Shown here one piece after another: positions 19,603-54,831 of a stretch of 64,000 nucleotides of DNA. Location of the stretch: contig NZ_FOXX01000001.1 in NCBI RefSeq assembly GCF_900115845.1, positions 792,334 through 856,333 on the forward strand, given 5' to 3'. Positions within the stretch are counted from its first letter, which is position 1. Every line of letters begins with the position of its first letter. The notes beneath the pieces were generated by a model. That model saw only the letters and a program-made list of their open reading frames with translations. It was not told where the DNA came from and did no database searches. This DNA comes from Priestia endophytica DSM 13796 (GTDB lineage Bacteria; Bacillota; Bacilli; Bacillales; Bacillaceae_H). The position numbers and the translations under genes were made by a program.

Positions 19603-22005
19603 TTATAATTTCAACCTTTGTAATCTTAGAGCATTAATTACAACAGATACAGAGCTAAACGCCATTGCAGCTCCTGCTACCCATGGAGCTAGTAATCCAG
19701 CTGCTGCAATTGGAATTCCTAATGTGTTGTATCCAAACGCCCAGAATAAGTTTTGTTTAATATTTTTAATTGTTTTGTCACTAATAAATAAAGCATCTCC
19801 TATGCTATTTAAATCTCCTCGCATAAGGGTAATATCTGCGGCTTCCAGCGCAACATCTGTCCCTGTTCCAATCGCCATCCCGACATCAGCAAGGGCAAGA
19901 GCAGGAGCATCATTGATTCCATCTCCTACCATGGCTACAAAATGTCCTTTTTCTTTCAGCTTTTGTACTTCCTTGGCCTTTTCTTCTGGAAGTACTCCTG
20001 CAATAACATGTTGGATTCCAACTTGCGCTGCAATTGCTCTAGCCGTTCTTTCGTTGTCACCTGTTATCATAAAAACGTGTAATCCTTGATCTATAAGACG
20101 CTGTACAGCTTCTTTTGACGTCTCTTTTACTGTATCTGCCACAGCAATAATTCCTTCATATACTCCATCAATGGCTACAAGCATCGCTGTTTTTCCTTCT
20201 TCCTCAAGCTTGCTCATATGCTCTTCAGCTACTTCAATGTGAATACCATGTTGAAGCATAAGCTTACGAGTACCAACAAGAACTTTTCTTCCTTCTACAG
20301 TTGCAGTAATCCCAAACCCTGAGAGAGATTCGAATTGTGAAACAGAACAGAGCTCAATTTTTCTTCCTTCTACTTCTTCTACGATAGCCCCTGCAAGCGG
20401 ATGTTCAGATTGTTTTTCAGCTGATCCTGCTATCCGTAGAAGTTCTGTAACTTTCATTTTTCCACGTACTAAAACATCCGTTACTTTTGGTGTTCCATTT
20501 GTAATTGTACCTGTTTTATCAAGAATAACTGTATCAATTTTATGGGCTGTTTCTAAATATTCGCCACCCTTAAATAAAATACCGTATTCTGCTGCACGTC
20601 CAGATCCTGCCATAATTGAAGTTGGCGTTGCTAATCCAAGAGCACAAGGACAAGCAATCACAAGAACAGCAATCAGCGCTTCTAAAGACGGTGCAAACTG
20701 TCCTGGTTCAACCCAGATATACCAAATCAAAAAGGTTACGATTGCAATACCGACAACAATAGGTACAAAAACTCCTGAAATTTTATCAGCTAAGCGCTGA
20801 ATAGGAGCTTTCGAACCTTGAGCTTCTTCAACAACTTGGATAATTTGAGCTAGCGCTGTTTCTTTTCCAACTCTAGTTGCTTCTACTTTTAAAAAACCAT
20901 TTTTATTAATTGTGGCTCCAATCACTTTGTCGCCAACTTTTTTATCCACTGGGACGCTTTCCCCTGTAAGCATTCCTTCGTCTATGCTTGACTCTCCAGC
21001 AATAACTTCCCCATCAACAGGAATTTTCTCTCCTGGTTTAATATATAAGATATCCCCTTTTCTTACGTCATCAATAGATATTTCTATTTCTTTCCCATCG
21101 CGAAAAATAGTGGCTGTTTTTGCTTTAAGACTCATCATTTTCTTGATTGCTTCTGAGGAACGTCCTTTTGCTTTTGCCTCAAAAAGTTTTCCTAATAAAA
21201 TGAGCGTAAGTAAAACCGCACTTGTTTCATAATAAAGCTCAATGTGATGACTTCCTGATGAACGGAGAGTCATATATAGAGAATAAAAATAAGCAGCACT
21301 TGTTCCTAAAGCAACAAGCACATCCATATTTGCACTCTTATTTTTTAATGCTTTAAAAGCGCCAATATAGAACTGCCCGCCAATAATAAATTGCACAGGC
21401 GTTGCTAATGCAAACTGAAACCATGGATTCATAAATAAATCTGGCACAGGAAGAAAAGAAGTAAAAGAAAAATGGCCGACCATCGTCCATAAAAGTGGCA
21501 AACTTAATATAAGCGAACCCCAAAACTTCATCTGCTGTCTTTTTAAAATTTTTTCACGATAATCCACATTTTCCGTTTCTTCTTTGACTTTAGCATCATA
21601 ACCAAGTTTTCTTACTTTTTCAGTCATATCTGATGGTGATAGAGTATTTTTGTTATAAACGACTGTTGCCGTTTCAAGTGCAAAGTTTACAGTAGCGTCT
21701 TCTACGCCTTCTAGTTTGTTCAACCCTTTCTCAATCCGGTTTGCGCATGCTGCGCATGTCATTCCCATTAGTACAAGCTCTGTTTTTTCTTTTACAACCT
21801 CATAACCAAGCTTATTCACTTTTTCTTCAATTTGATTTTCGTTTATTTCATCTTTATTATACTTTACTGTACACAACTCTAACGCAAAGTTTACATTTGC
21901 TTCCTCTACCCCTTCTAACTTTTTTAATCCTCTCTCAATCCGATTTGCACATGCTGCACATGTCATTCCGCTAATAGACAAGGAAGCTTCTTTATACGTT
22001 GTCAT
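19603..22005 (-). CDS. copA: Copper-exporting P1B-type ATPase
   Basis: CopA pumps Cu(I) out of the cytosol. The 800-residue protein starts with two heavy-metal-binding domains, each with GMTCAAC (residues 13-19 and 81-87), then eight membrane segments with the copper-site CPC ([11 protein letters not shown]), the phosphatase TGES, the phosphorylation motif DKTGT, an HP dipeptide (SEHPLAGA) and [10 protein letters not shown]. An in-frame GTG/ATG lies upstream, but GGGGGG stands 5 nt before the ATG at 22005. A CsoR-type operator overlaps this leader, and a terminator separates it from copZ, so copA appears to have its own copper-controlled promoter. Confidence 0.96.
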
Positions 22006-22777: not shown

Positions 22778-22969
22778 TTATTTAAATTTCACTTCTTTTA
22801 ACTTTCCTGTTTGTTGTTTCTTTTGTAGAGGAAAACGCTGCTTTTCTAATCTGTCAATTTGAGTAATTTGTGAATCATGAACAACAATCTCCACCGAACC
22901 ATATTCAATGCCTTGAAGTGATTGTACAATACGATCAATCCACTGTTGGTCAATTTGCTTTTCTCCCAT
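22778..22969 (-). CDS. yezD: YezD family (DUF2292) small protein
   Basis: A 63-residue protein of the YezD/DUF2292 family: a short N-terminal helix (QWIDRIVQSLQGI) followed by a beta hairpin (GSVEIVVHDSQITQID) and a basic tail. The family has no known function and tends to occur with sulfur-assimilation genes, as here. The ATG at 22969 is 8 nt behind GGAGG; the upstream TTG overlaps the site. A long structured leader precedes it, with the repeated hairpin-terminator element and a second hairpin (22992-23010) ending close to the ribosome site. A role in reading that leader is only speculation. Confidence 0.85.
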   Translation of the reverse strand: MGEKQIDQQWIDRIVQSLQGIEYGSVEIVVHDSQITQIDRLEKQRFPLQKKQQTGKLKEVKFK

Positions 22970-23018: not shown

Positions 23019-23091
23019 AAAAAAGACTCCTTTCATCTACATACCATTAATTGGAATTAGATAAGAAGGAGCCTTTAGTTGTCTAATCGGC
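23019..23091 (-). ncRNA. Leader element A: conserved hairpin overlapping a terminator, before yezD
   Basis: On the minus strand a 21-nt hairpin (23091-23071) reads GCC-GA-TTAG-ACAA-CTAA-A-GGC: an outer 3-bp stem, a GA/A internal loop, a 4-bp stem and a 4-nt A-rich loop. Its last GGC is also the start of the 5' arm (GGCTCCTT) of a terminator closed by AAGGAGTC and TTTTTT (down to 23019). Only one of the two can form fully. The same design occurs at leaders B, C and D. No T-box or SAM-riboswitch core is present. Confidence 0.6.
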
Positions 23092-24378: not shown

Positions 24379-24705
24379 TTAATACTTGCTTAATGGATTT
24401 TCTTCAAGGATATTTAAAAAATCATGAAACTTTCTTGCTAACCCTCCTTGCCCAAATTTCAAATACTTTGTACTTCCTTTTTTTATCCCTTTTTCTTCAA
24501 GATAATTTAAAAATGCTAATAAATAAATACGACGAGAAAGAATATTAATAACACCGTGATTATAAAGCCAGTCTTCAATTGTATTAAATGTACCTCGATT
24601 AAGACCGTACCTTTGATAGCACCAATTATAAAAATGTACATTCGGTAAGTTAAGATATTCGCTTGTTTTGATCGACACTTTTGCTTCTGAAGACAGCTCC
24701 TGCAT
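24379..24705 (-). CDS. Unrecognised protein overlapping ribR; possibly the RibR C-terminal domain
   Basis: A 108-residue basic protein with aromatic-rich NVHFYNWCYQRYGLNRG and a final LKFGQGGLARKFHDFL. It starts inside the ribR frame (56-base overlap, +1 relative frame) behind a perfect AAAGGAGG at 9 nt. RibR of B. subtilis is about 230 residues, a flavokinase domain plus a C-terminal domain; kinase part and this ORF together would give about that size. So it may be the RibR C-terminal domain made as a separate chain, or the result of a one-base frameshift. No catalytic motif seen. Confidence 0.6.
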   Translation of the reverse strand: MQELSSEAKVSIKTSEYLNLPNVHFYNWCYQRYGLNRGTFNTIEDWLYNHGVINILSRRIYLLAFLNYLEEKGIKKGSTKYLKFGQGGLARKFHDFLNILEENPLSKY

Positions 24706-25078
24706 ATTCTTTATCCTCCTTTATTTGTGTAAGAAGTGAGTGAAGTGAAGTGAATTTTTGTTCAGCGCGGATGTAAAAAAGAGGAATGCATTTTAAATGT
24801 TGACCATATAAGTCTCCTTCAAAATTTAGGAGGTGAATTTCAATTGTATGTTTAAGGTCAAAGCCTATCGTTGGTTTGAATCCTATGTTCATAATACCTT
24901 CGTACTTTTTGGAATTTAAATGAACTTGCACACCGTAAACCCCATTTTGAAGCGAGGGAGATGAAGAAGCTACATTAGCTGTGGGAAATCCAAGCTTTCT
25001 TCCAATCTTCATACCATGAATTACTTCTCCACCAAACTCTTGTTTATTAATCCACTGTACATTTTTCTTAATTTCCAT
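24650..25078 (-). CDS. ribR: RibR-like riboflavin kinase (flavokinase domain only)
   Basis: A 142-residue riboflavin kinase domain without the FAD synthetase domain of RibF. Family motifs are GRKLGFPTANV (ATP/Mg loop), GVYGVQV, MNIGFKPTIG and TIEIHLLNFEGDLYG (catalytic Glu region). RibR converts riboflavin to FMN and in B. subtilis belongs to the ytmI sulfur operon, where it also interferes with FMN-riboswitch control. Here FMN supply fits the FMN-dependent monooxygenases nearby. The ATG at 25078 follows a GGAAAGGGTGAT stretch. Leader B and a promoter of its own precede it. Confidence 0.87.
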   Translation of the reverse strand: MEIKKNVQWINKQEFGGEVIHGMKIGRKLGFPTANVASSSPSLQNGVYGVQVHLNSKKYEGIMNIGFKPTIGFDLKHTIEIHLLNFEGDLYGQHLKCIPLFYIRAEQKFTSLHSLLTQIKEDKEYAGAVFRSKSVDQNKRIS

Positions 25079-25103
25079 CCTTATCACCCTTTCCTTTGAA
25101 ATA

Positions 25104-25162
25104 AGAAAAGGCCTTTGATGCGTAGTATCTACACACCAAAGGCCTCTAGTTTTCTAGCCGGC
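25104..25162 (-). ncRNA. Leader element B: conserved hairpin overlapping a terminator, before ribR
   Basis: Minus strand 25162-25142 reads GCC-GG-CTAG-AAAA-CTAG-A-GGC, the same fold as leader A with three changed base pairs kept complementary. Its final AGGC opens the terminator 5' arm AGGCCTTTGGTGTG, closed by GCATCAAAGGCCT and a TTTTCTT tail (to 25104). The terminator also lies behind sndA and could end that operon's transcript; the conserved first hairpin argues for a regulatory role. Confidence 0.6.
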
Positions 25163-25285: not shown

Positions 25286-26437
25286 TTAGATTTTCAATAC
25301 ATCATGCTGTTGTTGCAAAAGGTATTTAGCACTGCTATACAAGAAATAAGCTCCTTTTATTAATGCTTTTTCGTTTATTGTAAAAGAAGGATGATGCCAA
25401 TCTTCTGTTCCACTTGTTCCTAAAAATGCAAAAGCCCCCGGTACTTTCTCTAGATAATGAGCAAAGTCTTCTCCTGCTGTTGAAAGCTCTGGTTCAATAG
25501 TTTCTAGCCCAGCACTTTTGGCTCCAGACTCTATTGCTTCAATTATGCTGCAGTGATTAATCAGCGATGGCGGCCCTTCATACCATTTGATATCTCCCTC
25601 CATTAAAAATGTATTAAATATATTTTCTAAGATTGTATAGAAACGTTCTTTGACATGTGCACGCACTTCTTTATCGAATGTTCTCACTGTTCCCTCAATC
25701 GTAACCGAGCTCGGAATAACATTCCATGTGTTTCCTCCCTCAATTCTTGTTACACTCACAACCGCATTTTTTAGCGGAGAAACATTTCGGCTTACAATGG
25801 TTTGTAAAGCTGTAATTATGTGAGCTGATGCTACAATTGGATCGTTTCCATTATGAGGAAGAGCTGCATGCGCTCCTTTTCCATTGATCACAACTTTAAA
25901 ACGATCAACAGCCGCCATTAATGGGCCACCCTTAATTCCTATTGTTCCAACTTGTAGGTCAGGCTTGTTATGAAGGCCAACAATAGCCTCTACATCTTCC
26001 AAATGGCCTGCTTTAATAACTTTTTCTGCTCCAGCTCCGTATTCTTCAGCAGGCTGAAATAAGAGGCGAATGCTGCCTTGAAGTTGTTCTTCTTCTTTTT
26101 TTAATAAATAGGCTGCTCCAATAGCAGTTGCTGTATGAAAATCATGACCACATGCATGCATTTTTCCACGTATTTTTGAGGCATATGGAAGATCTGTTTT
26201 CTCTTGAATGGGTAGAGCGTCAATATCTGCTCTAATGGCAACAACAGGGCCCTCATTATTACCGATGTTTGCCACAACTCCCGTTTTTAAAATTGTCTCT
26301 TCCAAGCGAATATCTTCGTCTATTAGCCATTCTTTAATTCTACTCGTTGTTTCAAATTCTTCGTGAGAAAGTTCAGGGTATTGATGTAAATGCCTATAAA
26401 TATGAATTAGACGTTCCTCAAGAACTTTGGCATTCAT
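25286..26437 (-). CDS. sndA: M20 family N-acyl amino acid deacylase (SndA-like)
   Basis: A 383-residue M20D amidohydrolase with metal motifs RADIDALP, HACGHDFHTA and PAEEYGAGA, STAGEDFAHYLEK and a final HHPSF. In the B. subtilis S-(2-succino)cysteine route, SndA (YtnL) removes an N-acetyl group after oxidation. The start at 26437 follows AAAGGAGGAG; the longer frame to 26464 is unsupported. It overlaps the upstream GNAT gene by 20 bases, so is co-expressed. Substrate assignment is by operon context and could be another acylated sulfur amino acid. Confidence 0.85.
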   Translation of the reverse strand: MNAKVLEERLIHIYRHLHQYPELSHEEFETTSRIKEWLIDEDIRLEETILKTGVVANIGNNEGPVVAIRADIDALPIQEKTDLPYASKIRGKMHACGHDFHTATAIGAAYLLKKEEEQLQGSIRLLFQPAEEYGAGAEKVIKAGHLEDVEAIVGLHNKPDLQVGTIGIKGGPLMAAVDRFKVVINGKGAHAALPHNGNDPIVASAHIITALQTIVSRNVSPLKNAVVSVTRIEGGNTWNVIPSSVTIEGTVRTFDKEVRAHVKERFYTILENIFNTFLMEGDIKWYEGPPSLINHCSIIEAIESGAKSAGLETIEPELSTAGEDFAHYLEKVPGAFAFLGTSGTEDWHHPSFTINEKALIKGAYFLYSSAKYLLQQQHDVLKI

Positions 26438-26978: not shown

Positions 26979-27749
26979 TTATATCGAGTACTCCACATCT
27001 CGCTGCTCGCTTTTTATACTTTCTTCTCTTCCCATCACCCGATCTAAAATTTTCTTCTCGAAGTAAATAAAGTCATTATCTCTTGGCCTCGGTCTTGCTA
27101 ATGGGATTTCAATATCCATTTCGATTCGTCCTTCTTCAATAAGAAGAACGCGATCTGCCAAAGCAACAGCTTCGCTCACATCATGTGTCACTAAAATGGC
27201 TGTAAAAGCTTTTTCAAATCATAATTGTTCAATTAGATTTTGCATCTCAATACGCGTTAGCGCATCAAGTGCTCCTAGTGGTTCATCGAGAAGAAGAAGA
27301 TTAGGGTCTGCGGCAAGCGCCCTGGCTAGTGATACACGCTGTTTTTGCCCCCCCGATAAAACCCGAGGCCATTTATTGTGCTTATCACCTAGTTTTACAG
27401 CTTGAAGAGCTTCGAAAGCTGTTTCTTCTTCTTTATCCACTGAGCAAATTCTTACGTTTTCAATTACTTTCTTCCAAGGAAGTAGCCGAGGCTCTTGAAA
27501 AAGCACTCGAGTTTGCTCATTATATCCTTTTACTTCTTTACCATTTGCTTGCAAGTTTCCAGCTGACGGTTGCTCTAACCCTGCGATTAACCGTAGAAGC
27601 GTACTTTTGCCACACCCACTCTTTCCAACAATGGCAATAAACTCTCCTTTTTGAATTTCTAAATTAATATCGTGCAAAACTGCTACTTCTCCAAATCGTT
27701 TTGATAGGTTTTGAATAGAAAGGTTCATTCCATTTGAAATGTTCTTCAT
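26979..27749 (-). pseudogene. ssuB: Second SsuB-like sulfonate ABC ATPase, interrupted by an in-frame TGA
   Basis: The frame encodes a nitrate/sulfonate/taurine-type ABC ATPase: Walker A GKSGCGKST, Q-loop LFQEPRLLPW, signature LSGGQKQR and Walker B LLLLDEP are intact. At 27221-27219 the Trp codon expected in LIEQLWFEK is TGA; the frame continues without shift into FTAILVTHDVSEAV and the normal C-terminus to 26979. A single base change explains it. Without readthrough, the H-loop histidine and about 77 residues are lost. The start at 27749 follows GGGGG. Sequencing error, recent inactivation or UGA readthrough are all possible. Confidence 0.88.
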
Positions 27750-27762
27750 AAAATATCCCCCT

Positions 27763-28539
27763 TTAATCTTTTGCAAAGTTCGGATGCCACTTAAGCCAGC
27801 TCCTTTCCATCCATTTTGCAACTGTATCTGATAACTTCCCCAAAAATGCATAAATTAGGATACTAAGTACAATCACATCCATTTGCATAAACTCTCTTCC
27901 GTTCATCGCCATAAAACCAATTCCAGAGTCTGCTGCAACGGTTTCAGCAACAATAAGAGTAAGCCACATCACACCGAGAGAATAACGAACTCCTACTAGA
28001 ATAGAAGGAAGGGATCCTGGCAAAATAACATGCCAGAAAAGAGCCCTTTTATTTAAATTGTAGACTCTCCCCATCTCAGTTAAAGTAGGGTCAATGGAGC
28101 GAATACCGTGAAAAGCATTTAAATATATCGGGAAAAAAACACCGAGAGAAATTAAAACAAGCTTGGCTGGTTCTGCAATCCCAAACCACAGAATCACAAG
28201 CGGAATTAGTGCTAGATGGGGAATATTTCGTACCATCTGGATTGAAGAATCTAACAATTTTTCCGATGTAGTACTCAATCCATTTATCATGCCTAATGCT
28301 AACCCTAATCCTCCTCCAATCAAAAAACCAGTGAATGCTCGCTTTGCACTATCTCCAATATATTGAGTAAGTTCCCCTGTTTGTAAAAGGGTGAGTAACG
28401 TATCCAACACTTTTAACGGCTGTGGAAACGTTTGTGCTCCGATAATGCCTTTTGTTGTCACAACATGCCATGTTACTAATAGAAAGAGTGGCAAAACCCA
28501 AGGCATAATATAGTGAAAAAAGAATCTTTTTTGTCTCAT
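27763..28539 (-). CDS. ssuC: Sulfonate-type ABC transporter permease (second copy)
   Basis: A 258-residue membrane protein with six segments and the BPD permease EAA loop (EMGRVYNLNKRALFWHVILPGSLPSIL). It groups with SsuC/TauC/NrtB permeases. It is encoded between the SsuA-like binding protein and the interrupted ATPase gene, so it belongs to an aliphatic sulfonate or similar sulfur-compound importer. If its ATPase is dead, the ssuB of the first cluster might serve both. Confidence 0.9.
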   Translation of the reverse strand: MRQKRFFFHYIMPWVLPLFLLVTWHVVTTKGIIGAQTFPQPLKVLDTLLTLLQTGELTQYIGDSAKRAFTGFLIGGGLGLALGMINGLSTTSEKLLDSSIQMVRNIPHLALIPLVILWFGIAEPAKLVLISLGVFFPIYLNAFHGIRSIDPTLTEMGRVYNLNKRALFWHVILPGSLPSILVGVRYSLGVMWLTLIVAETVAADSGIGFMAMNGREFMQMDVIVLSILIYAFLGKLSDTVAKWMERSWLKWHPNFAKD

Positions 28540-39200: not shown

Positions 39201-40346
39201 TTAAATTAACTGTTTTTTAATATCTTTCGCTAAAATATCGTTTCCAATGGCTTCACCAATGTTTCCACGTGAACGTCCAATATCTTCGCCAACTCCAAAA
39301 GATAAGAGCGGAAAAACAAGCTCTGCAAAACGATAAGATTCTTCTAAATGCGGGTACCCTGAGAAAATAAAGCTTTCAATCCCTATTTCTTGGTACTCTC
39401 TAATTCTTGCAGCAACTGTCTCGGCATCTCCAACAAGAGCGGTACCTGCTCCCCCGCGCACGAGACCAATTCCAGCCCATAAGTTCGGACTAATCTCTAA
39501 GTCAGCTTCTTTTCCTTTCTTATGGAGATCAGCCATTCGAGTTTGGCCTGTAGAATCATGTCGACTTAACCGTTGCTGTGCTTGCTCGATAATCTCATCA
39601 TCTAAATATGAAATAAGCTTATTAGCAGCGGCCCATGCTTCTTCATTTGTTTCACGTACAATAACGTGAAGACGAATACCAAACTTTACTGTTCGCCCTT
39701 CCCTAGCCGCTTTTTCGCGAACGCTTTTTATCTTCTCTTTTACCTGTTCTGGCGGTTCTCCCCATGTTAAGTACACATCTGAATGCTCTGCTGCCACATT
39801 CTGCCCTGCTTCTGAGGATCCACCAAAGTAAACAGGTGGTGTTGGTTGTTGAACAGGTGGGAAGATAAGCTCTCCCCCTTTAGAAGAAATATGCTTGCCT
39901 TCAAAATGAACTTTATCTCCTTTTAAAAGACTGCGCCAAACTTTCAAAAATTCATCAGTTGCTTCATATCTTTCATCATGAGAAAGGAAAACACCATCAC
40001 CTGCAAGCTCAACCGGATCTCCCCCTGCTACAACGTTAATCAGTAAACGACCATTTGATATGCGATCAAGAGTAGATGTCATCCGAGCAGCAACAGATGG
40101 AAGCATAAGACCTGGTCTAACGGCTACTAAAAACTTTAGACGTTGCGTCTCAGCCGCAAGGGCCGCTGCTGTTAACCAAGGGTCTTCGCACGACTTTCCT
40201 GTTGGAATCAAAACGCCCGTATATCCTAATCTGTCCGCTGCTTGTGCAACTTGACGAAAATAAGTATGATCAGCTTCTCTTCCTCCAATTTGTGTTCCTA
40301 AATATCGACCATCACCATGCGTTGGAATAAACCATAAAATTTCCAT
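39201..40346 (-). CDS. ssuD: FMNH2-dependent alkanesulfonate monooxygenase
   Basis: SsuD cleaves alkanesulfonates to aldehyde and sulfite with FMNH2 and oxygen. The 381-residue protein is full length, with the luciferase-like fold and SsuD segments [48 protein letters not shown], and [12 protein letters not shown]. Last gene of ssuB-ssuA-ssuC-ssuD, the same order as in B. subtilis. The FMN reductase it needs is encoded some 15 kb away, not in this operon. Confidence 0.96.
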
Positions 40347-40369: not shown

Positions 40370-41194
40370 TTAACCTTTGAAACTATCTCGCCATTTTAAT
40401 AGCCTTCGTTCAAATAAGCGCACAAGAGAGTCTGTTGCTTTCCCGACAACTGCAAAGATGATAATTCCCACGAACACTTTATCTGTTAGTGAATATAAGC
40501 GCGCATCCATAATCATGTAGCCAATTCCAGCGCTTGAACCCATAAGCTCAGCTACAACAAGGCCAAGCCAAGCAATTCCAAGTGATAAGCGCACACCTAG
40601 TAAAATATTAGGAAGGGCAGCAGGGAGAATCAGCTTTGTAATTTTATCTTTAAAACTAAATTCTAAAACTCTAGCAACATCAAACAGCTTAGTATCGACA
40701 CTTCTTATTCCAAGAAACGTATTAATATAGATTGGAAAGAACGCTCCAAGAGCAATTAATAAAACTTTGGAAATTTCATCAAATCCAAACCATAGAATAA
40801 AAAGCGGTGTTACAGCTAAATGTGGAACTGTGCGTAACATTTGAAGAGTTGGGTCAATATACGCCTCTGTTTTTTTAGAAAATCCTGTTAAGATTCCGAA
40901 AAGTAATCCAAGGCTACCGCCAAGTAGAAAACCAAGTGCTGCTCTTATGATACTGATTTTCATATTGCTAAAAAGCTCTCCAGATAACGTGAGTTCATAA
41001 AAGGAAGATAGGATAGCAACTGGTGTTGGTAAGATATTAGCAGAAACAAACCCCATACTCCCTATATACTGCCAAATAGCGAGAATAACAGCTGGCAAAG
41101 CGCATCCTTTTATCCATAACGGTATGCCTCTTTTTCCCTTTAGTTTTCTTGTTTTCCCTTCTCTTTGCACTTGAACGTAGGCTGCTGTTTTCAC
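40370..41194 (-). CDS. ssuC: Aliphatic sulfonate ABC transporter permease
   Basis: A 274-residue permease with six membrane segments and EAA loop [27 protein letters not shown]; SsuC/TauC group. Overlaps ssuA by 4 bases and precedes ssuD by 23 bases. Forms the sulfonate channel with SsuB and SsuA. Confidence 0.94.
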
Positions 41195-42171
41195 TTTTCA
41201 TCCTCCTTTCTTACTTTTTTCACGAAAGTATTATCAACTACTTTGGATACATCAATCTCTTTATTAATCGCGCCTATTTCATATTGGAAATCAGCCGTAT
41301 CTTGCTGATCTTTAATAATTTCTTTTGAAATAGGAACATTAAATTGTTTTGTATTTTTTAAGACATTCGCCACTACTTTTTCATCTAAGTTTTTCGTCTT
41401 CGCATAAATTGCAACAGCTTCTTCATTATGAGCGTTTTGCCATTTTACAGTTTTGTCGTACACTTTCATAAAGGTTTCCAATTCTTTTGGATGGTCTTTA
41501 ATAAATTGTTCTCTAGCAATTGCAAAACTAGGAGAGTATGTACCAACCGTTTCTCCATCTGCTAGTATTTTAGCGTCGTGTTCAATTGTTTGAAGTGAAA
41601 TAAATGGTTCCCAGATTGACCAAGCATCCACAGATCCATTTTGAAAAGCAGGCATCGCTTCATCTGGCTGAAGTTGAATAATTTCTACCTCTTTAGGAGA
41701 AATCCCAGCTTTCTTTAATGTTTTGTGAAGGAAGTCAAACCCACTGCTTCCTTTTGCAACTGCAATTTTCTTTCCTTTTAAATCTTTGAGTGACTTAATA
41801 CTGCTGTCTTTATTGACTAAAATAGCGTTACCTTTCACTCCATCTGACGTCATTGCAATTTCTTTAAATGGGACGCCACCAGCCTGCCCTCCAATAACAG
41901 GTGAATTTCCTACTAGTGTCACATCCAATTTTCCACCTGCAATCCCTTCAAATTGAGGCGGCCCACTTTGGAACTCTGTCCATTTCACTTTAATTCCTTC
42001 TTTTTCAAACTCTTCTTCAAACCATTTCTTTTCTTTTGCAATCCATAGCGGTGTTAGGCTTTGTTGAATGCCAATATTAATTTCTTTTAATTTTCCTGGT
42101 TCTGCTGAACTTTTAGCAGAGCAAGCTGTTAACAACAGTGCAGCTGCTATTACTAACAACCATTTCTTCAT
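41191..42171 (-). CDS. ssuA: Aliphatic sulfonate-binding lipoprotein
   Basis: A 326-residue lipoprotein: signal peptide with lipobox LLTAC (Cys about 17), then the SsuA binding fold (INIGIQQSLTPLWIAKEKKWFEEE, GGKLDVTLVGNSPVIGGQAGG, LKGKKIAVAKGSSGFDFLHK in parts, DAWSIWEPF). Captures alkanesulfonates outside the cell for SsuBC. It lies 11 bases after ssuB. Confidence 0.94.
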   Translation of the reverse strand: MKKWLLVIAAALLLTACSAKSSAEPGKLKEINIGIQQSLTPLWIAKEKKWFEEEFEKEGIKVKWTEFQSGPPQFEGIAGGKLDVTLVGNSPVIGGQAGGVPFKEIAMTSDGVKGNAILVNKDSSIKSLKDLKGKKIAVAKGSSGFDFLHKTLKKAGISPKEVEIIQLQPDEAMPAFQNGSVDAWSIWEPFISLQTIEHDAKILADGETVGTYSPSFAIAREQFIKDHPKELETFMKVYDKTVKWQNAHNEEAVAIYAKTKNLDEKVVANVLKNTKQFNVPISKEIIKDQQDTADFQYEIGAINKEIDVSKVVDNTFVKKVRKEDEK

Positions 42172-42182
42172 TAAAATCCCTC

Positions 42183-42950
42183 CTAAATTCCTGATCCTTG
42201 TTCATAGACCACTTCTTTTGTTTTTTCAAACTCTTTTAACACTTCCTGACGGAGATACTGGAAAGATGAATCAGTTCGATCTCTTGGAAAAGAAAGCTTA
42301 ATAGGCATCACTTTCTGAAGGGCACCTGGCTTTGCTCTTAAAATCGCAAGCTTTGTGCCTAAATAAATTGACTCATCAATATCATGGGTAACTAAAATCA
42401 TCGTAATTTTTTTCTTCTGCCAAATTTGAAGCAAAACATCTTGAAGGTGCTTTCTCGTGAACGCATCAAGCGCTCCAAATGGTTCATCAAGCAGTAATAC
42501 TTCTGGTTCCCGAATAAGTGCGCGAGCAATAGCTACACGCTGAGACATTCCTCCTGACAGTGCTGATGGATATGCTTTTTCATAACCATCTAAGCGAACA
42601 ATTTGAATAATCTCTGCTACTTTTTGCTTCACTTTTGGATCTCGTAAATTCAAATCTGCTGCAATGTTCTGTTCGACGGTTAACCATGGAAACAACCTGT
42701 GTTCTTGAAAAATAAATCCTTGATTGATTCCAGGCTCTACAATCCTTTTGTTTTCAATATGAACTTTTCCAACATAGTCAGTATCGAGACCAGCTATAAT
42801 TTTTAATAGTGTGCTTTTTCCACATCCGCTTGGGCCAATAATAGTTAAAAACTCACCTTGTTTAATTTCTAAGCTAATATCGTCAATTACTACAGTGCGC
42901 TTTTCATCACTTATAAATGCTTTTTCATTTACAACAATTGAAACTGCCAC
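42183..42950 (-). CDS. ssuB: Aliphatic sulfonate ABC transporter ATPase
   Basis: A 255-residue intact ABC ATPase of the nitrate/sulfonate/taurine group: Walker [11 protein letters not shown]-loop [10 protein letters not shown], signature LSGGMSQR, Walker [16 protein letters not shown] and H-loop LVTHDIDE. First gene of ssuBACD, directly behind the tandem leader elements C and D. It keeps the Trp in LLQIWQKK that is TGA in the second copy. Confidence 0.95.
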
Positions 42951-42969: not shown

Positions 42970-43021
42970 AAAAAACTCCCTATCTAAATAAGATAGAGAG
43001 CTTTCGGTTGTTCCGATCAGC
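42970..43021 (-). ncRNA. Leader element C: conserved hairpin overlapping a terminator, before ssuB
   Basis: Minus strand 43021-43000 reads GCT-GA-TCGG-AACAA-CCGA-A-AGC. The AGC opens the terminator arm AGCTCTCTATCT, closed after TATTT by AGATAGGGAG and TTTTTT (to 42970). It lies about 20 bases before the ssuB start, right before its ribosome site. Second of two tandem copies. Confidence 0.62.
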
Positions 43022-43078
43022 CTTTTTCAATATGTGTTTACAGTCATTCACAAAAGCATCAACTCCTTTAGTAGCAAC

Positions 43079-43133
43079 AAAAAAAGCACACGCTTCTTTA
43101 AAAGAAACATGTGCTTTCGGTGTTCCGATCAGC
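43079..43133 (-). ncRNA. Leader element D: conserved hairpin overlapping a terminator, first of the tandem
   Basis: Minus strand 43133-43113 reads GCT-GA-TCGG-AACA-CCGA-A-AGC. The AAAGC then starts a long terminator stem (AAAGCACATGTTTCTT with AAGAAGCGTGTGCTTT, 16 pairs allowing G-T) followed by TTTT (to 43079). The ssu transcript must pass D and then C, giving two checkpoints in series. Confidence 0.62.
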
Positions 43134-43154: not shown

Positions 43155-43207
43155 TATCCAATTAATTCTATAGGGATTATAATATATAAATTTTCTTTCT
43201 TCGTCAA
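43155..43207 (-). promoter_or_regulatory. ssuBACD promoter with CymR-like box
   Basis: Minus-strand TTGACG (43207-43202), 17-bp spacer, TATTAT (43184-43179), then CCTATAGAATTAATTGG just downstream. The latter resembles the GGAATTA boxes near the other sulfur leaders and would sit at the transcription start. Confidence 0.65.
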
Positions 43208-54569: not shown

Positions 54570-54800
54570 AATAAAAAAACTCCCCTCCCACAAAGGGACG
54601 AGAGATGCTTTCCCGCGGTACCACCCAAATTAGCGCTTAAAACGCTCAGCTTTACGTCCGTAACGTGGACTAACGACAAATGCTACTGCTTTCGTTCACA
54701 TTTATAGCTCAAAGGCGAGTTCACAAACATGCCTCTACTGACTCACACCAACCGTCAGCTCTCTTAAAGACTCATGTTTCCTACTACTCCTTATCAAAGC
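54570..54800 (-). promoter_or_regulatory. T-box leader (leucine) of leuS
   Basis: Classic T-box riboswitch on the minus strand. The T-box core TGGGTGGTACCGCG lies at 54627-54614; its TGGT bulge pairs with a tRNA ending ACCA (discriminator A, as in tRNA-Leu). In stem I, GTGAA-CTC puts CTC (Leu) as specifier at 54719-54717. A terminator follows (CTC...CGTCCC with GGGAGGGGAG and TTTTTTT, about 54604-54573). Uncharged tRNA-Leu would favour antitermination and leuS expression. Confidence 0.93.
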
Positions 54801-54801
54801 A

Positions 54802-54831
54802 AATATAGTGTTCGTTACTATGTATTGTAAA
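54802..54831 (-). promoter_or_regulatory. leuS promoter
   Basis: Minus-strand TTTACA (54831-54826), 18-bp spacer, TATATT (54807-54802), a few bases ahead of the T-box leader. Confidence 0.7.

Follow-up and report, generated by a model that had tools for sequence, protein, structure and literature searches.

The leader of the ssu genes in the window, the whole 64-kb stretch of DNA that was analyzed, carries two small hairpins in series, each overlapping a strong terminator. The best explanation for this arrangement, which comparison of sequences leads us to regard as probable, is that the small protein YezD binds and holds both hairpins, which is predicted to keep the terminator from forming and would let transcription continue into the sulfur genes. 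The explanation is based on the mutual exclusion of hairpin and terminator, the covariation of the helices, the strong conservation of the GA/A loop, the co-occurrence of YezD with the element, and the position of copies ahead of sulfur genes. The original prediction described the RNA; beyond it, the analysis points to YezD as the likely protein partner, and the module extends beyond sulfur, to cobalamin-riboswitch loci and phage satellites.

Hairpins and terminators in the window

Both hairpins predicted before ssuB were located and folded on the minus strand. Downstream of a promoter-like site (TTGACG, 17 nt, TATTAT; 43179-43207, minus strand), which matched the consensus at 10 of 12 positions and is not by itself proof of function, pattern and fold place the first antiterminator-type hairpin, GCTGATCGGAACACCGAAAGC (GCT-GA-TCGG-AACA-CCGA-A-AGC), at 43133-43113 and the second, GCTGATCGGAACAACCGAAAGC (GCT-GA-TCGG-AACAA-CCGA-A-AGC), at 43021-43000. 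Their stems are identical, with 3 bp, a 2x1 internal loop (GA/A), and 4 bp within 21-22 nt, and folded alone they reach -6.5 kcal/mol (first) and -6.4 kcal/mol (second). When downstream bases were added to the fold, both copies lost the lower stem and the 3' arm was captured by the terminator. The first intrinsic terminator, detected by a terminator scan (43084-43116, minus strand; whole fold -23.2 kcal/mol, z -6.35), has its 5' arm in common with the first hairpin, and the second (42973-43003, minus strand; whole fold -20.3 kcal/mol, z -4.96) lies directly ahead of ssuB. The genes that follow on the minus strand are ssuB (42183-42950, a sulfonate-type ABC ATPase by family match), ssuA (41191-42171, sulfonate substrate-binding protein; TIGR01728, 3.6e-92), ssuC (40370-41194, permease; NF008470, 3.6e-75, below its curated cut-off), and ssuD (39201-40346, FMNH2-dependent alkanesulfonate monooxygenase; TIGR03565, 7.1e-189).

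Two further copies had been proposed at ribR and yezD. They are real and adopt the same fold, but their stem sequences have diverged from those of the ssu leader. On the minus strand, the third copy (GCC-GG-CTAG-AAAA-CTAG-A-GGC; 25142-25162) was identified by its fold and scored 50.3 bits with covariance model R1, whose training set includes it; its terminator (25109-25145; whole fold -29.7 kcal/mol) precedes a ribR-like riboflavin kinase (flavokinase) gene (24650-25087; PF01687, 4.2e-36). Similarly, the fourth copy (GCC-GA-TTAG-ACAA-CTAA-A-GGC; 23071-23091, minus strand), identified by its fold and scoring 54.7 bits from outside the R1 training set, and its terminator (23023-23074; script fold -20.8 kcal/mol) stand ahead of yezD (22778-22969, minus strand). 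The latter encodes a 63-aa DUF2292 protein (PF10055, 1.3e-17), proposed here as the antiterminator on the basis of its co-occurrence with the element. Between the ribR-like and FMN-reductase genes lies a 108-aa ORF (24379-24705, minus strand) without a Pfam match. In a second sulfonate-type transporter cluster, an SsuB-like gene (26979-27851, minus strand) is interrupted by a frameshift or sequencing error; its two ORFs, 27219-27851 and 26979-27191, each match PRK11247.

The exact pattern of the ssu-leader hairpin matched twice in the window, against 0.00 expected from 100 shuffles. The hairpin design followed by a terminator below -12 kcal/mol occurred at exactly four places, and the same scan of 40 dinucleotide-shuffled windows averaged 0.05 places (never more than 1) if any lower stem was allowed and found none if the lower stem had to be GCY. 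A fifth place at 19663-19685, with a CAT lower stem and found in a looser scan (terminator below -9 kcal/mol), and a weak R1 match at 26051-26105 on the plus strand (E 0.0063) were taken as chance. Folded alone, the four hairpins reach -5.8 to -7.4 kcal/mol, and the terminated folds reach -20.3 to -29.7 kcal/mol. Because the terminated fold is thus more stable by about 14-22 kcal/mol, termination should be the default, and a stabilizer of the hairpin seems to be needed.

No known RNA family covers the element, as had been predicted. Rfam 15 at the gathering score returned no family over it, either in the window or in 41 related loci, and five of those loci searched also at E<=1 gave none. The Rfam scan of the whole window returned a single T-box leader (54591-54806, minus strand, 149.7 bits), which is unrelated to the hairpin family; at the ssu leader it found neither a T-box nor a SAM riboswitch, ruling out a T-box, S-box, or other Rfam element as the identity of that leader. 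Our literature search found no account of this hairpin element or of any YezD function.

We further compared 78 distinct copies from Bacilli, Clostridia, and viral contigs. Their consensus, NNY-GA-NNNG-loop-CNNN-A-RNN, consists of a lower stem of 3 bp, an internal loop of GA/A that reads GG in the ribR copy, and an upper stem of 4 bp with nearly always a G-C closure. The script that listed these copies demanded this very design, and the internal loop is therefore constant among them by construction; among 52 R1 matches that were read, six deviate from GA (AA in most) and one (L200) lacks the design. In the 78-copy alignment, one row of which (L334) is misaligned by one base, 99.5% of 546 cells are paired, a percentage biased upward because the copies were picked by structure-aware searches. 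Two-sided changes occur at six of the seven pairs, and the covariation score was 0.607, compared with 0.334 for shuffles and at most 0.189 when the strands were slid. Compensating changes include GCT/GGC, GTT/GAC, and ACT/GGT in the lower stem and TCGG/CCGA, CTAG/CTAG, and GCAG/CTGC in the upper stem. It is these changes, rather than the pairing percentage, that support the structure, and a separate alignment of 46 full elements, partly chosen by R1, gave the same picture. The attenuator reading of the original prediction, in which hairpin and terminator exclude each other, thereby gained both folds and covarying helices in its favor; the covariance-model search of related genomes that it had proposed yielded this base-pair covariation together with matches ahead of sulfur genes.

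Genomic settings of the element

At 80 named yezD loci, the script found the element with a GC lower stem in 67; two Clostridium copies with compensating changes and six recognized by eye, whose terminators are longer or which have one mismatch, were added, and the remaining five showed no recognizable element by script or eye. Most of these elements lie a short way 3' of yezD, and the interval between yezD and cysH is a recurrent site. Among 26 downstream genes that we chose for annotation, 16 are sulfur genes, which bears out the proposed link to sulfur. CysH lies directly 3' of the element at four loci (L004, L027, L030, L046) and a sulfate-binding protein at L014; the others encode a sulfate-binding protein, a sulfonate-type permease, MetQ, and OAH sulfhydrylase in C. 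tyrobutyricum, and three sulfate-binding proteins, OAH sulfhydrylase, SsuD, SsuE, and MetN in other Bacilli. The ten non-sulfur genes encode NifH, NifB, three nitrogenase-alpha-like proteins, and a glycerol dehydrogenase-like protein in C. tyrobutyricum, and elsewhere threonine synthase, a glutamate-symporter-like protein, one protein without assignment, and an EAL-domain-like protein.

C. tyrobutyricum gave 20 R1 matches at E<=0.01, some of them weak, in the 11 stretches examined. Priestia megaterium (G307) gave five at E<=0.1. Its elements ahead of NifB, NifH, and the three nitrogenase-alpha-like genes (L190, L191, L198) hint at a sulfur-controlled nitrogenase-like system; by analogy, these genes may presumably encode sulfur-salvage reductases. 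Tandem copies ahead of one gene were also found in L201, L207, and L217. In the last of these (genome G224), a single gene cluster contains six R1 matches in about 10 kb, and among the genes preceded by a copy are a ribR-like gene and a yezD, both named by eye. Copies also occur more than 100 kb from any listed yezD or on another contig, ahead of genes for sulfate-binding proteins (L213, L219), SsuD (L202, L220), OAH sulfhydrylase (L218), MetN (L212), and MetQ (L197).

Riboswitches frequently precede yezD itself. Of 41 distinct loci scanned, 17 (two of them in one genome) have a SAM riboswitch upstream of the gene and on its strand. A cobalamin riboswitch precedes a divergent DUF2292 gene in three loci of Clostridia-class genomes (L228, L229, L230), and L228 continues with the hairpin and a DUF4430 protein. 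The hairpin stands ahead of a long ORF in L228 (by script) and L229 (by eye). For yezD in the window, the Rfam scan found no riboswitch, and the gene has only its own hairpin. Among the loci checked, the order riboswitch-yezD-element-cysH was found in L004, L030, and L046, and this gene order favors a positive role for YezD. The sequence data are silent on direction, and TRAP and PyrR are proteins that promote termination; YezD might likewise block the hairpin, promote termination, and act as a brake. We consider this improbable, since with such an order sulfur starvation would induce a repressor of its own operon, and what is conserved is the terminator's competitor, the hairpin. A riboswitch table in PMC4342826 gives B. 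methanolicus leaders of ssu and metNPQ genes as SAM then PyrR; within that table, the PyrR label ahead of sulfur genes looks odd.

Outside bacterial chromosomes, a pattern scan of viral contigs returned 20 stretches, 12 of which have hairpin and terminator, several of them on near-identical contigs; the other eight showed no hairpin-terminator by script and were dropped as chance. Eleven of the 12 have an ORF of 62-69 aa whose end is no more than 11 nt from the hairpin; the twelfth stretch (L305) starts just ahead of its hairpin, and the same contig has a YezD-like match (L324). Four of the viral proteins were compared with Pfam, and all match XtrA (PF17356) weakly, below the cut-off (best L307, 8.9e-7). 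Three also match DUF2292, one above the cut-off: against PF10055 (cut-off 22 bits), L300 scored 25.6, L306 20.9, and L298 15.9, with no match for L307. An alignment of ten viral proteins matched the YezD profile in hhalign (96.5%, E 8.7e-10); YezD alignment A2 found no match in the viral contigs, and tblastn of the L227 and L307 proteins found none in phage records.

Further tblastn searches with the viral YezD-like proteins returned 49 and 67 records, all from Streptococcus by first word, and the 40 matches listed are satellite phages. Of 12 satellite regions, 11 have the hairpin-terminator directly 3' of the YezD-like gene (10 by script and L333 on rereading); L335 has a plain terminator only. 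The gene behind the satellite hairpin is annotated as minor capsid (L327, L338) or major capsid (L332), and the rest as hypothetical. Eight other viral loci have DUF2292-like genes, with the hairpin about 0.3-0.9 kb farther on in L288-L291 and none found by script in L292-L295.

Co-occurrence of YezD with the element

YezD of the window scores 63.5 bits against PF10055 (cut-off 22) and matches no other Pfam family at E<=0.001. Its predicted secondary structure consists of a helix (8-18) and two strands (24-31 and 34-42), consistent with a predicted fold made up of one helix plus a hairpin of two strands (core pLDDT >90, pTM 0.52; a first model from a shallow alignment reached pLDDT 62), and it has a conserved E-K-x-R end. 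Neither sequence search nor Foldseek found a relative in the PDB, so that structural comparison lends no support to RNA binding. The family comprises 4077 database proteins at E<=0.001. B. subtilis, among the control rows, also matches PF10055, which opens YezD to study in a standard strain.

We investigated the distribution of protein and element in 299 genomes of the order. PF10055 was present in 135 genomes and the element (R1, E<=1e-4) in 118, all 118 of which have YezD; none of the 164 YezD-less genomes had the element at that threshold. The training copies of R1 came mostly from the neighborhood of yezD, which biases the model toward YezD-linked forms. At looser R1 cut-offs, five YezD-less genomes matched at E<=1e-3 and 28 at E<=0.01. 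The five (G044, G122, G132, G142, G302; E 1.4e-4 to 9.6e-4) had no match to model R2 at E<=0.1 and were treated as false positives; this recheck covered those five of the 28, the other 23 having R1 E between 1e-3 and 0.01. Of the YezD-bearing genomes, 17 had no R1 match at E<=1e-4, and R2 at E<=0.1 recovered six of them, some weakly.

Sulfur metabolism alone does not account for this co-occurrence. Among the 216 genomes with cysH (TIGR00434), 114 have both YezD and the element, none has the element only, 15 have YezD only, and 87 have neither, so that a simple linkage of the element with cysH was rejected. Within 12 genera that include cysH-bearing members with and without YezD, the element was found in 13 of 18 YezD-bearing genomes and in none of 21 others.

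The size class of the hairpin and its overlap with a terminator are also those of RAT targets, and the RNA-binding domain of the proteins that bind them, CAT_RBD, occurs widely in the order, in 255 of the 299 genomes. The hairpin might therefore be a target of LicT/SacY or another known antiterminator class, with YezD merely a member of the same regulon. This is very unlikely in our judgment: CAT_RBD is missing from 7 of the 118 element-bearing genomes (G022, G031, G074, G145, G187, G220, G247), each of which has YezD, and present in 144 of the 181 without the element, and the satellites have a YezD-like gene directly before the element. As CAT_RBD does not follow the distribution of the element, a CAT-domain protein was rejected as the cognate factor, although, on the absence of CAT_RBD alone, some other protein might serve in those seven genomes. 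That the hairpin senses a ligand or acts with RNA polymerase alone, YezD co-occurring through shared sulfur physiology, would suit a hairpin and terminator that exclude each other in the fold without protein, but there is little to recommend it given the 87 genomes with cysH and without YezD that lack the element at E<=1e-4, the elements beside YezD-like genes away from sulfur genes (satellites, DUF4430 locus), and the fact that we know of no riboswitch aptamer as small as this hairpin.

In the class of C. tyrobutyricum, 10 of the 177 genomes have YezD. The element (R2, E<=0.01) was found in six genomes, five of which have YezD; one of these five is G305, on which R2 was partly trained. In three more YezD-bearing genomes of this class, the script (L226, L228) or inspection by eye (L229) located a hairpin no farther than 1.5 kb from the gene. 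The exception is G405, with an element at 2.7e-6 and no detectable YezD; by eye, its good-looking element (L232) lies about 0.3 kb ahead of a sigma-factor-like ORF, in a stretch with no sulfur gene. Of the factors tested (DUF2292, cysH, and CAT_RBD), YezD is the one whose presence follows that of the element, both in chromosomes and in satellites.

Proposed mechanism and known antitermination systems

YezD is likely to be a one-domain RNA-binding antiterminator. Without it, the far more stable terminator would win. When sulfur (SAM) is scarce, YezD would be made, in many relatives by way of the SAM riboswitch ahead of its gene, which would then permit transcription, and the protein would act in trans on every copy of the hairpin. 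As the placements suggest, riboswitch-controlled YezD could thus relay a SAM or B12 signal to distant operons. The hairpin ahead of yezD in the window would provide positive feedback, and two serial copies before ssuB might give tighter shut-off and a steeper response.

A broader generalization seems to us somewhat better than an even bet. YezD, XtrA, and their relatives may form a superfamily of one-domain antiterminators with a common hairpin target; with a riboswitch placed before the protein gene, a SAM or B12 sensor that acts in cis would come to govern a regulon in trans, and satellites would use the protein-hairpin cassette as a timing gate before capsid-type genes. PMC4374763 places XtrA in the Xre regulon of PBSX, and the passage concerned gives no function for it. 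The four viral YezD-like proteins match the PBSX XtrA family, all with scores under the Pfam cut-off.

If correct, the proposal would in one step supply a likely function for both a protein family whose role is unknown and its RNA target, would add a layer of sulfur control in Bacillota, and would show how a riboswitch could govern distant operons through a minimal antiterminator. At about 50 aa plus a 21-nt hairpin, the module is tiny, and it recurs in phage satellites, thereby linking metabolism and mobile elements.

Several known systems resemble parts of this one. Regulation of B. subtilis ssu was reportedly described by van der Ploeg and others in 2001, judging from their title, as acting at transcription initiation and termination, and termination control would fit an attenuator there; our literature search found no paper on that regulation naming a hairpin or a factor. 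The S-box (SAM-I) riboswitch serves the same physiology, and it is the element found upstream of yezD in the relatives; however, the ssu leader has no SAM aptamer, and the riboswitch would act at a distance through the protein. In the EutV/ANTAR system, a B12-riboswitch-controlled sRNA sequesters an antiterminator protein, so that a riboswitch signal likewise reaches distant terminators through a trans-acting antiterminator. On that description the two are set apart, because here the riboswitch would control the antiterminator gene itself and not a sequestering RNA.

The closest parallel is LicT/SacY/BglG with the RAT target, and the likeness to protein-bound antiterminator targets of this type, with a differing sequence, held as originally predicted. 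In both, a short hairpin with an unpaired internal loop overlaps the 5' arm of a terminator, as found in the four window copies, and a small RNA-binding domain stabilizes the hairpin, as proposed here for YezD. The RAT target, however, is roughly 30 nt long with two asymmetric internal loops, whereas the folds of the four window copies have 21-22 nt and one 2x1 GA/A loop. YezD has no match to CAT (PF03123), its family being DUF2292, and the input of its system appears to be the amount of protein, in contrast to PTS phosphorylation for LicT/SacY. Because two defining features of LicT/SacY, the two-loop target of about 30 nt and the CAT protein, are lacking, we do not file the system in that class and judge it to be a new class within protein-dependent antitermination, one that would work like LicT/SacY.
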